A DNA stretch of 48,169 nt, taken from a bacterium (GTDB taxonomy: Bacteria; Bacillota_I; Bacilli_A; RF39; UBA660). The first letter of the stretch is position 1. Each line of letters begins with the position of its first letter. The translations under genes were made by a program, and so were the position numbers. Below are positions 33,515 through 48,169 of this stretch, in pieces. The notes beneath the pieces were generated by a model. That model did not search any database, was not told where the DNA came from, and saw only the letters and a list, made by a program, of their open reading frames with translations. Location: contig JAQXOT010000013.1 in the NCBI GenBank assembly GCA_029099845.1, positions 1-48,169 of the forward strand, in the 5' to 3' direction.

Positions 33515-35665
33515 TTGAAAAATAAGAAGAGAAATAATATACGCTATTCCAAGACAATTATCATTATTTCTCTTTTTTTATTTGCTTTAATGATTCTTCG
33601 TCTTATTCAATTAGGCTTATCGACAACTATTGATGGTGTTAATCTAAAACAACTAGCTAGTAAAAGAACCACCAAAACAGAAACAATTACCGCTAAAAGA
33701 GGAAATATTTATTCAAACGATGGTGATATTTTAGCTCAAAATGTTGCTTCCTATAAAATTATTGCTTATCTAGATGAAAAAAGAACAACTGACGAAAATA
33801 ATCCGCAACATGTGGTTGATAAAGAAAAAACCGCCACTGAACTAGCACCAATTTTAGGAATGGAAAAAGAAACAATCTTAAAATATCTAAATAAAGAAAA
33901 TGTTTATCAAACAGAATTTGGTTCCAAGGGTAAAAACTTAACTGAACTAACTAAACAAAAAATAGAATTGTTAAATTTACCGGGTATCGATTTTATTGAA
34001 AGCTTTAAGCGCTATTATCCTAAAGGTGATTTTGCCTCATATACTATCGGTTATGCTAAAAATAATACCGATTCCGAAACTTCAAAAGAAGAAATTGTTG
34101 GAGAAATGGGAATTGAAAAACAATATGATAACCTTTTACGTGGTGAAGATGGCTATATAACTTACCAAAAAGATTTGCGTGGTTACCAAATTGCTAATAC
34201 TAACGTTTGGCAAAAAGATGCCGTTCAAGGTAAAGATGTATATCTAACATTAGAAAGCAATGTACAGTTTTTTATTGAGCAAGCTTTAGATAATGCTGAT
34301 GCTGATTATGATTTTGAATGGTTTACTATTACTATTTTAGATGCTAAAACTGGTGCTATTTTAGGTACTGCCACTTCGCCATCATTTGATCCAAATACTA
34401 GAAATATTACCAATTATTTAGATTTACTGCTTGCTGCACCATATGAACCAGGTAGTACCATGAAAACATTTACCTACATGGCCGCTATAGAAAATGGCGT
34501 ATATAATGGAAATGACACCTATAAATCAGGAGTATATTACACAACTGACGGAACAGAAATTGGTGACTGGAATCGTGCCGGCTGGGGCATGCTAACATAT
34601 GATAAAGGTTACGCTATGAGTAGTAATGTTGCTATCATTAATTTAATTAAAAATAATATGGACAGCATGATGCTCCGCCAATATTTTAAAAAGTTAGGTT
34701 TTGGCAAAAAAACTGGTATTTCTTTGCCAAATGAAAGTGCCGGTAAAATCGATTTTAAATATGAAACCGAAATTTATAACGCAGGTTTTGGTCAAGGAAT
34801 TACCACAACTCCAATTCAAAATGTCCAAGCTATGACACCATTAACTAATGATGGTATGCTTCTAAAACCTTATATTGTTTCAAAAATTGTAGATCCAACA
34901 ACAGGGGAGGTAATTCTTGAAAATACTCGTAAGACAACAGAACGAGTAGCCTCAACCGCCACAGTTCAAAAAATGCTTCAATTAATGGACGACTGTGTTA
35001 ATGGTGAAGGCAATACCGGAAGTGGTTATAAAATATCATCTGGTGAGCTAATTGGTAAGACTGGTACTGCCCAAATTGCTAATGAAAACGGAGGAGGGTA
35101 CCTAAATGGCAAAGAAGATATCATATCTTCATTTGCAGGAATTTATCCAAAAAGTGATCCCCAATATATAATATATGCCTCAGTAAAACGGCCTACTAAT
35201 GGTAGTCAAAAACCTATCTCAAATGCGATAAAAGAAATTGTTAACAATCTTTCAAAATATTATGGTACTGAAGAGGCCTCTAGCAATAAAATAACTATTA
35301 ACGAATACACTTTAGATAGCTACGTTAATAAAAAAATAGCTAACATCACCACGACTTTAAATGCTCTTGGTATTAAATATAGTATAATTGGTGATGGCGA
35401 TAAAGTAATTAAACAGTATCCAGAAAAGAATGATATTATTACCAACAAAGATACTTTATACTTAATTACTAATACTAACAACTTAACAGTTCCTAATGTT
35501 GTTGGCTTATCATCTAAAGTAGCCAGTAGTCTTTTAAAAGAACTGGGAATAAAAGTTAACTTAGAAGGAGTAGGCTATGTCACCAGTCAATCAATCCAAG
35601 AAGGCACGCCTATTATAGACGGTTTAGAAATTAATCTAGCATTAAGCCCTAAATATCAAACCTAA
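33515..35665 (+). CDS. pbpB: Class B penicillin-binding protein with PASTA domains (PBP2B-type)
   Basis: 716 residues with TTG start after AGGAAGTGATTCAA. It cross-links peptidoglycan at the septum as partner of FtsW and FtsL. An N-terminal helix (~12-32) is followed by the dimerisation domain (RTTKTETITAKRGNIYS; SFKRYYPKGDFASY) and the transpeptidase domain with the catalytic SxxK in EPGSTMK, SSN in YAMSSNVAI and KTGT in IGKTGTAQ. Two PASTA-like repeats close the protein (from ~590), the second reading LTVPNVVGLSSKVAS. PASTA domains occur in PBP2B/SpoVD/PBP2x. The dcw position favours the vegetative septal enzyme. All active-site residues are intact. Confidence 0.93.
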   Translation: MKNKKRNNIRYSKTIIIISLFLFALMILRLIQLGLSTTIDGVNLKQLASKRTTKTETITAKRGNIYSNDGDILAQNVASYKIIAYLDEKRTTDENNPQHVVDKEKTATELAPILGMEKETILKYLNKENVYQTEFGSKGKNLTELTKQKIELLNLPGIDFIESFKRYYPKGDFASYTIGYAKNNTDSETSKEEIVGEMGIEKQYDNLLRGEDGYITYQKDLRGYQIANTNVWQKDAVQGKDVYLTLESNVQFFIEQALDNADADYDFEWFTITILDAKTGAILGTATSPSFDPNTRNITNYLDLLLAAPYEPGSTMKTFTYMAAIENGVYNGNDTYKSGVYYTTDGTEIGDWNRAGWGMLTYDKGYAMSSNVAIINLIKNNMDSMMLRQYFKKLGFGKKTGISLPNESAGKIDFKYETEIYNAGFGQGITTTPIQNVQAMTPLTNDGMLLKPYIVSKIVDPTTGEVILENTRKTTERVASTATVQKMLQLMDDCVNGEGNTGSGYKISSGELIGKTGTAQIANENGGGYLNGKEDIISSFAGIYPKSDPQYIIYASVKRPTNGSQKPISNAIKEIVNNLSKYYGTEEASSNKITINEYTLDSYVNKKIANITTTLNALGIKYSIIGDGDKVIKQYPEKNDIITNKDTLYLITNTNNLTVPNVVGLSSKVASSLLKELGIKVNLEGVGYVTSQSIQEGTPIIDGLEINLALSPKYQT

Positions 35666-43657: not shown

Positions 43658-43757
43658 TTTTAACGCCTATTTTTGCGTAAATTTACACATAAAAATGAAA
43701 AAAACCAGAAAATATTAAAACGAGTAAGTATAATTGAATTATAGAGGAGTAAGACAA

Positions 43758-45173
43758 ATGAAGAAATTAAATGAAAAAGGATTTACATTAATAGAACTTT
43801 TAGCAGTCATTGTAATAATATCTATACTTATGATGATTGCAATTCCTAGTGTTTCTCGGATAATTGAAAAATCAAGAATAGATTCTTTTGTAACTACAGC
43901 AAAAGCATATGTTAATGCAGCTAAAAACTTATGGACAGCTGATTCTTTAACATGTGGTAATAATAATACATATGTTTCTGGAGTGGATGATGGAGATTAC
44001 TATATTTTAATAGACACAAGTGATGATACTATTTCTCCATTGATAGAGAAAAATAGTAAATCACCTTGGGGAGGTAGAGATTTAAAAGGTTACGTTCGTA
44101 TTACAAAAGCAGGGGATGGAGATAAAGTTACTAAATATTATGTTGCTTTAACTGATGGAACACATGCAATATATGACGATGTATTTAACCCAATAGAATC
44201 ATATCAGTTAGATAGAAATGATGTAATAAATGATATTACTAAAGAATCAAAAAAATTAAAAAAGATTCAAACAACTCCATTTGAAATAAATAAATATACA
44301 ACATGTAGTGAAGAAAGTGTAACATGGACAGGAACTTCAAGCCCTTATAAAGATAGTTATGAACCAAAAACAGAAGGAGTAGCATATGCTTTATTTTCAG
44401 AAACCGACAACTCATTAACTTTCGTACGTTCTGAAGCCGAAATTAAACCAGGCGATGTTTATGAAGGAATAAAGGTAACAAAGGTTTATACAGGCTTTGA
44501 AAGAGCAGATTATCATTCATCTGATTTTGTTCCTTGGCATGGTGAAAGCAGAGCAATTAGGAAAATTGAGGTAAGAGATATAATAAAACCAATTAGCACA
44601 GCACACTGGTTTTATGAGTTTGAATATTGTTCAGATGTAAATGTTGCCAACTTAGATACATCAAACGTTACAAATATGAGAAGTATGTTTAGAGATTTAG
44701 GATATTATGGTGAAGATATATATTTGGATTTGAGTGGTTTTAATACAAGTAATGTTACATATTTACCTTATATTTTTATGTCAACAGGATATAAAGCTAA
44801 AAATATTACGATAGATTTAACTGGGTGGAATACTAGTAAAATTACAGATATGAGTGATTTTTTCTGGAGAGTTGGTGAATACGCAACAACAGTAAATATA
44901 ATAGGCATTGAAGATTTTGATACAAGCAAAGTTACAAATATGTCTAGTATGTTTTATGCAGTTGGTGAAAATGCCACAACTCTTAATTTAGGCGATTTAA
45001 GTAAATGGGATACATCGAATGTAACTAATATGGAGAGTATGTTCTGTAAAACAGGATATAATGCATCTTTTTCATTGGACTTAAGTAACTGGAATGTTAA
45101 TAATGTTACTAGACATGGTAGTTTTAATTATAATGTATCTTATAAGATAAAATCTCCAATTTGGGTTAATTAA
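43758..45173 (+). CDS. Type IV prepilin-like protein with DUF285/BspA-like repeats
   Basis: 471 residues from the ATG at 43758, with AGAGGAG upstream; the in-frame TTG at 43734 lies before that site. The N-terminus MKKLNEKGFTLIELLAVIVIISI is a classical class III signal: prepilin peptidase would cut after EKG and methylate Phe. A pilin-like middle (~30-250) with a Cys pair follows. From ~298 come five or so DUF285-type repeats (NLDTSNVTNMRSMF, FNTSNVTYLPYIF, WNTSKITDMSDFF, FDTSKVTNMSSMF, WDTSNVTNMESMF), with ~25-30 residues between units. Such repeats are known in BspA-like adhesins and Mollicutes surface proteins. Fusion to a prepilin head implies display on or assembly by a pilus-like fibre. 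Codon use is more AT-rich than ackA. Confidence 0.85.
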   Translation: MKKLNEKGFTLIELLAVIVIISILMMIAIPSVSRIIEKSRIDSFVTTAKAYVNAAKNLWTADSLTCGNNNTYVSGVDDGDYYILIDTSDDTISPLIEKNSKSPWGGRDLKGYVRITKAGDGDKVTKYYVALTDGTHAIYDDVFNPIESYQLDRNDVINDITKESKKLKKIQTTPFEINKYTTCSEESVTWTGTSSPYKDSYEPKTEGVAYALFSETDNSLTFVRSEAEIKPGDVYEGIKVTKVYTGFERADYHSSDFVPWHGESRAIRKIEVRDIIKPISTAHWFYEFEYCSDVNVANLDTSNVTNMRSMFRDLGYYGEDIYLDLSGFNTSNVTYLPYIFMSTGYKAKNITIDLTGWNTSKITDMSDFFWRVGEYATTVNIIGIEDFDTSKVTNMSSMFYAVGENATTLNLGDLSKWDTSNVTNMESMFCKTGYNASFSLDLSNWNVNNVTRHGSFNYNVSYKIKSPIWVN

Positions 45174-45211: not shown

Positions 45212-45333
45212 TGCCTAAAATTTAGGATTTATTAAACCGATCACGAACTTATCAGAAAAAGCACTTTATTCTTTAAACTTTCAATTAGTTCTTTTTTTTC
45301 TAAAAAAACATAGAAATAACTAAGAGGTGAAAT

Positions 45334-46257
45334 ATGTTTTTTAAAAAAATAGATGAACGTATAAAAGTAGTATTTCTCATAATTTTAATTCTTTTTATAT
45401 TCATAATTTTAAGAGTCTTTTACATTCAAGTGGTTGATTATAAAAAATTAAATACTTATGCCGCAAACTTATGGAGTAGAGACTTGCCAATAGAAGCTAA
45501 TAGGGGCTTAATTCTTGATCGCAATGGGACAGTTTTAGCCGATAATCTTACAACTACTAGTCTAGTTTTAATTCCAAATCAAATCAAAGATAAGGAAGAT
45601 GCCACCAAAAAACTGGCTGATATTTTAGGCATATCATATGAACAAATGAAAGAACATGTATATAAAGAAACATCAATAGAACGTGTTCACCCAGAAGGAA
45701 GAAGACTATCATATGATATAGCCGAAAAAATATCTGCTTTAGAGCTAGACGGAATCTATCTAGTTAAAGAGGCTAAAAGATATTATCCTTATGGAAATTT
45801 ATTATCACATTCCCTAGGCTATGTTGGAATAGATAATCAAGGACTATCTGGCTTAGAACTACAGTATGATGAATATCTTACTGGCAAAAGCGGTGCCATT
45901 AAGTATTTTTCAGATGCCAAAGGAAATAAATTAAATCTATCTGATATATATGTAGAACCTCAAGATGGAATGAATATTAGTCTAACAATTGATATAAACA
46001 TTCAAAAATCCATTGAGCGAGAACTAGATAATATTGTTGATATGTTCACGCCAGATATGGCTTTAGCCTTAGCTATGGATCCTAAAACAGGAGAAATTTT
46101 AGGTATGGGATCCCGTCCTGGCTATGACCCAAATAGTTATCAAAACTATAGTCAAGAAGTATTAAGTAGAAATTTGCCAGTTTTCTCATCATATGAACCA
46201 GGATCTACCTTCAAGAACGTAACTCCACTTTTTAGTAATTTTATTTTAAAGTTATAA
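45334..46257 (+). CDS. Class B PBP (SpoVD-like), N-terminal part, interrupted
   Basis: 307 residues, ribosome site AGAGGTGA. A membrane helix (~12-32) and the PBP dimerisation domain (WSRDLPIEANRGLILDRNG; KRYYPYGNLLSHSLGYVG; GLSGLELQYDEYLTG) are followed by the start of the transpeptidase domain (ALALAMDPKTGEILGMGSRPGYDPNSY). The active-site motif EPGSTFK is reached at 46195-46215. Then the sequence departs from the family and stops after NVTPLFSNFILKL. The expected SxN and KTG motifs are therefore lost. The dimerisation domain reads like SpoVD/FtsI. A recombinase-carrying element begins directly downstream, so the missing C-terminal half is probably on its far side, outside the window. As it stands, the product cannot be a transpeptidase. 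Confidence 0.85.
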   Translation: MFFKKIDERIKVVFLIILILFIFIILRVFYIQVVDYKKLNTYAANLWSRDLPIEANRGLILDRNGTVLADNLTTTSLVLIPNQIKDKEDATKKLADILGISYEQMKEHVYKETSIERVHPEGRRLSYDIAEKISALELDGIYLVKEAKRYYPYGNLLSHSLGYVGIDNQGLSGLELQYDEYLTGKSGAIKYFSDAKGNKLNLSDIYVEPQDGMNISLTIDINIQKSIERELDNIVDMFTPDMALALAMDPKTGEILGMGSRPGYDPNSYQNYSQEVLSRNLPVFSSYEPGSTFKNVTPLFSNFILKL

Positions 46258-46280
46258 ATATTATTTATTGGTGATGATAA

Positions 46281-46427
46281 TTGATAAATAATAAAATATT
46301 TGAACTTCAAATACAAATAATAATTAACACTAATTTATTAAAAAAAAAAGTAATAGATGTAAATACATTTTTAAAAGTAAATGATAAATTATTGAGAAAT
46401 ATTAGATTGTTGCGAAATAAATATTAA
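46281..46427 (+). CDS. Small ORF upstream of the recombinase (SHOCT-like N-terminal domain?)
   Basis: 48 residues, TTG start after GGTGATGATAA. The sequence FELQIQIIINTNLLKKKVIDVNTFLKVNDKLLRNI resembles the short helical pattern (Q-x-x-x-N-x-x-L-L-K-x-x-x-I-D...F...N-x-x-L) of small proteins found before recombinases in Firmicutes integrative elements. It is separated from the recombinase by only 19 bases, so it is cotranscribed. A recombination directionality factor is an attractive but unproved role. Too short for confident family assignment. Confidence 0.5.
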   Translation: MINNKIFELQIQIIINTNLLKKKVIDVNTFLKVNDKLLRNIRLLRNKY

Positions 46428-46446
46428 TTGTGAGAGGAGTAGTATT

Positions 46447-48169
46447 ATGAATTATGATAAAATATTAAAATCAATAATGCTTGGAGAAAAAATTTATGAT
46501 CTTCCTCTTCGAGTATGCTACTATTGTAGGGTTTCAACAGATTCTGATGTTCAATTAAATTCGTTAGGAAATCAATTAGAATATTATGAAAACTATATTA
46601 AATCAAAACCAAAATGGATTTTTTCTGGTGGTTATATTGAAGAAGGAAAAACAGGTGTTAGAGTTGATGTTAGACCGAGTTTTAAAAAAATGATATTCGA
46701 TGCAAAACATAATAAATTTGATTTAATAATTACAAAAGAAGTATCTAGATTTGCTCGTGATTTAGAAGATAGTATTCATTATATAAGGGAGCTAAAAGAT
46801 TCTGGAGTTGGTGTATTTTTTGAAAATCAAAATTTGAATACATTTGATTCTAATTCTGAATTAATTTTAAATATAATGTTTAATTTAGCTCAAGATGAAT
46901 CTAGAAAATTATCTGCAAGAGTAAAGTTTGGACATAGACAAGCCATTGAAAATGGACATGTGCTAGGTAGTTCAAATATCACGGGATATAAAAAAGATAA
47001 TTGTAAATTAGTAATAGTCGAAAATGAAGCTAAATTTATAAAAGTATTGTTTGAATTGTATGCAAGTGGAAAATATGGTTTTCATAAATTATCAAAGAAA
47101 TTATCAGAGTTAGGATATCTTAATAAAAAAGGAAAACTATATGATAAAGATTCTTTAAAACGTATGATAGAAAATCCTAAATACAAAGGATATTATCGTG
47201 CAAGGACTTACGAAATACTTGATTATAGAACAAAGAGAAGGAAAAAAAATAGTACAGAAGATCAAATATTATATAAATGTGAAGATGGAAGTATTCCATC
47301 AATTATATCTGAAGAACTTTGGGATAAAGCTAATGCAATATTAAAAACACGTACTAAAGGATATAAAAGTAATGATTATTGGTCTGGTGGCTTAAAATAT
47401 GCTTTTAGTTCAAAATTATATTGTAAGGAACATAATACAAATTTTCAAAGATCACATGGTAGTAGAAATAAGAATAGACCTACGTGGAGTTGCGGTATGT
47501 ATTTACAGCATAGATTGGCTGCATGTGAATCTCCAATTATTGCTGAAATAGACTTGTACAACATCTTATCATCTATAATGAATTATATTATTCCACAAAA
47601 GGAAAATGTTGTTGATGATTTGCTAAAATTATATGAGAGTATAGATATAACTAATGATTATGATAAAGAATTAGAATTTCTTAATACTAATATAAAAACT
47701 ATTGAAGAAAAGAAATTAATGATGCTTGATTTAATTTACAATGGAGATATAAGTAAAGAGTCCTTTAAGGTGCAATTTGATAAATATGATCAAGAAATTA
47801 AAAATTTGAACGTAGAGAAAAATGATTTAATTGAACAAATTGAACGATTAAAAAATAGTCATAATAATTCTGATAGAATAAAAAAATCAATAGAAGAAGA
47901 AATTAATGGTGGTTCATTGAACGAGTTTATCAGAAAATTTGTTGATGAAATAATAATATCTAAAATAGATGGCGATAGACATAACATTAAGCTTGAAATA
48001 TATTTGGATTTATTAGGTGAAGAAAAATCAAAAACTAAGGGCGCAAGACACATAAATGGTGCTACTACTAATGATATTCTTTATTTAGAAAATCAAACTT
48101 GCGATACTATCGAGATTAAGAGAGCGATAGATAATCCAAATAGATTTACATACAATGTTTATTTAAAAA
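46447..48169 (+). CDS. Large serine recombinase (integrase), 3' truncated by window
   Basis: At least 574 residues with GAGGAG ribosome site; the frame stays open to the window end. The N-terminal resolvase domain has YCRVSTDSD (catalytic Ser ~30), then EVSRFARD with the conserved Arg, and LAQDESRKLSARVKFG at its end. The recombinase domain (~175-270, with ITGYKK, YASGKYGFHKLSKKL, NPKYKGYYR) is followed by a zinc ribbon (YCKEH, then WSCGMYLQHRLAAC) and a long coiled-coil segment (~385-470), the layout of large serine integrases. These catalyse site-specific integration and, with a directionality factor, excision. The neighbouring split PBP gene is the target site. Confidence 0.93.
   Translation, partial: MNYDKILKSIMLGEKIYDLPLRVCYYCRVSTDSDVQLNSLGNQLEYYENYIKSKPKWIFSGGYIEEGKTGVRVDVRPSFKKMIFDAKHNKFDLIITKEVSRFARDLEDSIHYIRELKDSGVGVFFENQNLNTFDSNSELILNIMFNLAQDESRKLSARVKFGHRQAIENGHVLGSSNITGYKKDNCKLVIVENEAKFIKVLFELYASGKYGFHKLSKKLSELGYLNKKGKLYDKDSLKRMIENPKYKGYYRARTYEILDYRTKRRKKNSTEDQILYKCEDGSIPSIISEELWDKANAILKTRTKGYKSNDYWSGGLKYAFSSKLYCKEHNTNFQRSHGSRNKNRPTWSCGMYLQHRLAACESPIIAEIDLYNILSSIMNYIIPQKENVVDDLLKLYESIDITNDYDKELEFLNTNIKTIEEKKLMMLDLIYNGDISKESFKVQFDKYDQEIKNLNVEKNDLIEQIERLKNSHNNSDRIKKSIEEEINGGSLNEFIRKFVDEIIISKIDGDRHNIKLEIYLDLLGEEKSKTKGARHINGATTNDILYLENQTCDTIEIKRAIDNPNRFTYNVYLK

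Follow-up and report, generated by a model that had tools for sequence, protein, structure and literature searches.

We found that the spoVD gene of the window, by which we mean the whole stretch of DNA analysed (48,169 bases, the entire contig C13 of a 28-contig, 1.14 Mb MAG, genome G000), is split inside the active-site SxxK lysine codon by an element carrying a large serine recombinase (LSR) gene, and that related elements split spoVD at this and two further motifs in other genomes of the family. The most probable explanation, to which we assign a probability of about 0.8, is that these are small skin- and gin-like intervening elements in spoVD, excised in the mother cell to restore the gene. 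The host is an uncultured, probably gut-dwelling bacterium.

The split gene and the ends of the element

The PBP open reading frame at 45334-46257 (+, 307 aa) matched PBP_dimer and only the first 50 of the 299 Transpeptidase positions (Pfam). Its frame is normal through EPGSTFK, breaks inside the SxxK lysine codon (46213-46215), continues for 13 further codons to a TAA at 46255-46257, and is followed on the same strand by the LSR gene (46447-48169), within which C13 ends at 48169. The preliminary description had reported this arrangement, apart from the contig end, and had predicted a downstream segment encoding the missing half. A search of the same genome traced it to the terminal part of contig C14 (C14:110184-111209, minus strand, of 111348); it opens with ATGGTAGGTACG/TTCAAAATTATTACT, which reads GTFKIIT, and contains GTFKIITMASAVEE, SxN (NSCN) and KTGT. 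Downstream of it lie mraY and then an ftsW/spoVE-like gene, in an order matching that of a relative (L126), and no intact spoVD copy was found in the searched genome G000. C13 and C14 are separated by a gap of unknown size, the middle of the element being absent from the assembly of this genome; on C14, the final ~130 bases of the element encode the end of another ORF, taken by eye to be a putative ArsC/Spx-like protein. Among the intact SpoVD of other genera, the nearest were 72-75% identical to exon 1 of the window. In the ORF upstream of spoVD (43734-45173) the N-terminus is like that of pilins (GFTLIELLAVIVI) and the repeats recall BspA-type surface proteins; pilin-like ORFs similar to it are present as cargo in L130.

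Table 1. Positions of the features in the window.
Feature	Position	Strand	Remarks
Paralogous class B PBP (PbpB/PBP2X-like), unbroken, internal control	33548..35470	+	720 aa open frame; TIGR02214 321 bits, below 688
CATA motif of spoVD, candidate -10 of a sigma-E/sigma-K-type mother-cell promoter	45309..45312	+	CATA enrichment before spoVD starts
spoVD exon 1 (residues 1-293, to STF of STFK)	45334..46212	+	PBP_dimer and start of Transpeptidase; exon alone 272 bits to TIGR02214 over profile 4-295, a partial length that cannot reach 688
Inferred crossover dinucleotide AA in the SxxK lysine codon	46213..46214	+	Found in attL as well as attR; midpoint of the attP dyad
Element left-end arm of attL (GAACGTAACTCCACTTTTTAG...)	46215..46240	+	Pairs as a dyad with the arm at the other end of the element (C14)
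Small ORF before the LSR, 48 aa, TTG start, candidate recombination directionality factor (RDF)	46281..46427	+	Counterpart upstream of related LSRs
LSR gene	46447..48169	+	PF00239 Resolvase and PF07508 Recombinase; cut short by the contig end, with no more than a few C-terminal codons lost

The window recombinase was matched by PF00239 (E 1e-27) and PF07508 (E 7e-18), which places it among the large serine recombinases, and by the Zn ribbon PF13408 just below its cut-off. An assignment to the SCCmec Ccr recombinases was rejected, as the CcrC score was 98 bits against an NCBIfam cut-off of 900. A small ORF similar to that of the window lies directly upstream of nearly every LSR examined at the three split sites of spoVD; the only family match was a sub-threshold SHOCT similarity in one member, and we consider these ORFs candidate RDFs. 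Phage families were not found among ten cargo ORFs of relatives, the window's own element being incompletely assembled. An LSR search of viral contigs yielded no relative, and therefore no phage origin is claimed.

The attL site reads GGATCTACCTTC-AA-GAACGTAACTCC, with the core TTCAA at 46210-46214, and attR reads ATGGTAGGTACGTTC-AA-AATTATTACT. The attP site built from the two arms of the element is a near-palindrome, TACGTTC-AA-GAACGTA, centred on the AA of the lysine codon, with a perfect 7-bp dyad and 9/10 matches around AA (shuffle p 1.5e-4), whereas attB has only 3/10; a dyad in attP and not in attB is as expected for serine integrases. Joining of the host flanks gave EPGSTFKIITMAS / YEPGSTFKIITMASAVE and restored the reading frame, in agreement with the earlier proposal that the SxxK codons serve as the attachment site. 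The conserved protein was likewise restored by joining the host flanks of most pairs at all three split sites, and the joined flanks were 20/20 identical in L041 (site A), L129 (site B) and G002 (site B).

Recurrence in the family and recombinase clades

The split points of spoVD in the family lie at SxxK (site A), at the asparagine codon of SxN (site B) and at GQGxSVTPxQ, also GQGxSVTPIQ (site C). One to three of these sites are interrupted in ~69 of the 242 spoVD-bearing genomes (~28%), an approximate manual count in which some genomes show one side of the break only or end near a contig end. Because many other genomes break at the same SxxK codon, each beside an LSR of the same clade, the break is not a matter of chance. 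The preliminary description had regarded the SxxK region as a robust target, an idea that the two further sites in the same gene bear out. Whole elements are present on single contigs in L041, L042, L126, L127 and L129-L132. Sites A and B of L041 are occupied by different elements, G075 carries B and C elements in order on one contig, and G002 and G261 have all three sites filled, giving four exons. The elements of relatives are about 3-16 kb in size, mostly with one LSR each, and vary in cargo (Fic, DarT-like, HipA-like). In G003, a 127-bp exact contig overlap across an empty site A (L192/L121) was considered as a sign of mixed excised and integrated cells, and this was rejected, as the shared k-mer passes the core on both sides; the overlap appears to be an assembly-graph break.

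A tree of 58 LSRs placed the recombinases of each spoVD site (A, B and C) and of each of two spoIVA sites in a single clade, a match between clade and insertion site that was reached in 0/500 shuffles. The window LSR is a member of the clade of site A, which has 15 rows and a support of 100. The branching of the LSRs disagrees with that of the hosts. The congeners G001 and G002 carry an A-site LSR subclade different from that of the window genome, so either the SxxK codon was hit more than once or the element was replaced. The LSR has the direction of the split gene in 33/34 cases; the number of independent events behind these is small, orientation being inherited within each clade. One site-A LSR (L043 5796-8425) is opposite to its spoVD half and has an attL arm of the usual type; an inversion within the element is possible. 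We also observed many LSRs, ~40% identical and forming another clade of related recombinases, by which the gene of an ABC transporter substrate-binding protein is apparently interrupted in antisense orientation (L052-L087). This target looks like a non-sporulation gene, and thus the LSR elements of the group may not always be tied to development.

Sporulation genes in pieces

Intact copies of the gene, whose presence in relatives the preliminary description had put forward as a check, were found in other genera of the family. They scored 711 and 693 bits against TIGR02214 (Stage V sporulation protein D), above its curated equivalog cut-off of 688 bits, and are SpoVD, as the earlier term SpoVD-like had implied. 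The vegetative paralogue PbpB, which has the same motifs, retains a full-length frame in nearly all spoVD-split genomes. SpoIVA of the window genome passes its own equivalog cut-off, and SpoIVA was present in 256/291 family genomes, six of these matches being weak and scored as absent in the co-occurrence counts. Co-occurrence of spoVD and SpoIVA was significant among the family genomes (Fisher p 1e-13). SpoIVA was kept in 67/69 genomes with split spoVD, 160/173 with unsplit spoVD and 23/49 without spoVD (Fisher p 1e-10); since it is as frequent in split as in unsplit genomes, the splits do not seem to be a stage on the way to losing sporulation.

In B. subtilis, promoters read by sigma-E and sigma-K have the tetranucleotide CATA as the core of their -10 box. 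We found CATA 14-34 nt before 36/40 spoVD starts, at a near-fixed distance, versus 44/305 other starts, a comparison set that includes some spoVD and other sporulation genes (Fisher p 4e-22); it also precedes nearly all spoIVA starts. A strict sigma-E two-box pattern (-35/-10) was not enriched (3/28 versus 1.5 expected), only the positioned CATA was, and the motif is absent directly before the window LSR and the window small ORF. The equivalog assignment, the SpoIVA co-occurrence and the CATA motif place the element inside a sporulation gene.

The spoVD exons of G000, G001 and G002 showed pN/pS of 0.08-0.16 at synonymous distances of about 1 or more, and are under purifying selection. The presence and conservation of the C-terminal half, together with the lack of decay, go against the two outcomes named earlier as adverse, namely that this half is absent or that the PBP was truncated long before the element arrived. 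The selection might partly be older than the insertions, although an insertion shared in a cotD-like coat gene argues against this. An LSR element interrupts that gene in 3/3 species of the genus (L186 14-2557, in G000 C25; L198, L199); the gene is intact, at 109 aa, in G015. Its exon shows 5-11 synonymous versus 0-2 other changes between the species sharing the insertion, over a length of only 45 codons. The G000 and G002 elements in the cotD-like gene have a NERD-like cargo protein in common. All three LSRs of the window genome adjoin broken genes, namely spoVD, the cotD-like gene and a LysM amidase, two of which are sporulation genes by sequence. The amidase (L187 1-1427, in G000 C26; L210) is split by its LSR in the window genome and has a longer open frame, of at least 345 aa, in G002.

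We further observed that spoIVA is split inside its ATPase domain in ~18 family genomes (L173 1086-7757, in G183; L174, L175, L166, L169, L170), a separate LSR clade adjoining the right-hand piece where checked. Two genomes of different genera, G113 and G292, have identical LSR proteins over ~478 aa, which suggests a recent transfer. A further LSR clade is located just before an apparent SpoIVA C-terminal piece (..VDVESTFEPIIGSE..) in L048-L050.

Probable excision in the mother cell, alternatives and implications

The data strongly suggest excision of the elements and its timing in the mother cell. The attB of the LSR would be the stretch of DNA encoding SxxK, and crossover would take place at the AA of the catalytic lysine codon. 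Growing cells could not make SpoVD but should lose nothing by this, as the enzyme has a role in the spore alone. In sporulating cells the LSR, with a directionality factor for which the small ORF is a candidate, would excise the element from mother-cell DNA and restore the reading frame precisely. The mother cell dies, and the element would be passed on in the spore. Since related elements fill SxN and GQGxSVTPxQ of the same gene, some species would have to remove two or three of them to make one enzyme.

One alternative is plain parasitic integration, in which spoVD is inactivated without programmed excision, the cells sporulate poorly or use another PBP, and intact copies persist through occasional random excision or the turnover of strains. 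The related elements in the transporter gene, the discordance of the LSR and host trees and the variable cargo, as in mobile elements, are in keeping with it. We consider it unlikely, however, as splits reach ~28% of the spoVD-bearing genomes, with up to three per gene, without exon decay or loss of SpoIVA, the cotD-like insertion is common to three species with its exon kept, and every LSR of the window genome lies in a broken gene, mostly of sporulation. Another alternative is reversible phase variation that is not bound to a cell type, with excision and re-integration at a low rate in growth, which would leave just a fraction of the population able to sporulate. Serine integrases with an RDF can work in both directions, which would permit this. 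It might also be compared with yin, which is excised in part of the culture at all time points (PMC10747680). Yet the CATA motif of the split gene is of mother-cell type, and re-integration is unnecessary in a terminal mother cell, leaving phase variation improbable. That unrelated fragments were joined by assembly or binning could be suspected from the two halves of the window gene, which are on different contigs with a gap between them; the same break with an LSR on single contigs of many independent genomes, and the agreement in flanking gene order, reduce this to a negligible chance.

Intervening elements excised in the mother cell, the reading we prefer, have several known counterparts. 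The gin element in gerE of Bacillus cereus ATCC10987 is 28.6 kb long, with three LSRs at one site, a 9 bp core ending in AA, a predicted diadenine crossover and a helper, GirX, needed for excision (PMC5595907). Like gin, the spoVD elements are apparently non-prophage serine-recombinase elements that split a mother-cell sporulation gene with a short core and predicted AA crossover; unlike gin, they are about 3-16 kb, carry mostly one LSR, have new targets with up to three per gene, and are known here from sequence alone. The skin element in sigK (B. subtilis, C. difficile), for which excision under RDF control is the model (PMC5025042), is also an LSR element in a mother-cell gene, but it is a prophage-like remnant in a sigma factor gene, whereas spoVD encodes a cortex-synthesis enzyme whose catalytic motifs are the points of insertion. 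SPbeta in spsM, vfbin in spoVFB and yin in yabG are further excisable LSR elements interrupting sporulation genes (PMC4191935, PMC10747680); in contrast to the spoVD elements, they are prophages or prophage-like, with a single insertion per gene. The elements interrupting cyanobacterial heterocyst genes are similar in splitting terminal-cell genes, sometimes several per gene, with four in Rivularia nifD (PMC4874684), and differ in phylum, developmental programme and their mixed tyrosine and serine recombinases. The ICEBs1 insertion in B. subtilis spoVD (PMC3715440) was set aside as unrelated, being a laboratory secondary site of another element.

In the literature searched, we found no earlier report of spoVD and spoIVA as split sporulation genes; also new there are the placing on catalytic motifs, the several elements per gene in sporulation and the tie of each recombinase clade to one motif. 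A survey of the order RF39 describes spoVD as reduced or absent (PMC10868615). Genome size and content, with published notes on RF39, suggest that the host family may belong to this order, and if so, split genes missed by annotation may explain that description. The site-dedicated clades also offer naturally occurring recombinases whose attB sites are known, and through them developmental excision can be tested in a large lineage of uncultured bacteria. We tentatively raise the wider possibility, about which we are more doubtful than hopeful, that sporulation across the family runs on genes in pieces, with spoVD, spoIVA, the cotD-like gene and the LysM amidase rejoined in the mother cell by independent site-dedicated LSRs, and up to three excisions per enzyme acting as a multi-key developmental checkpoint. 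Taken together, these results suggest that spore formation in this lineage depends on DNA excision to rejoin genes.
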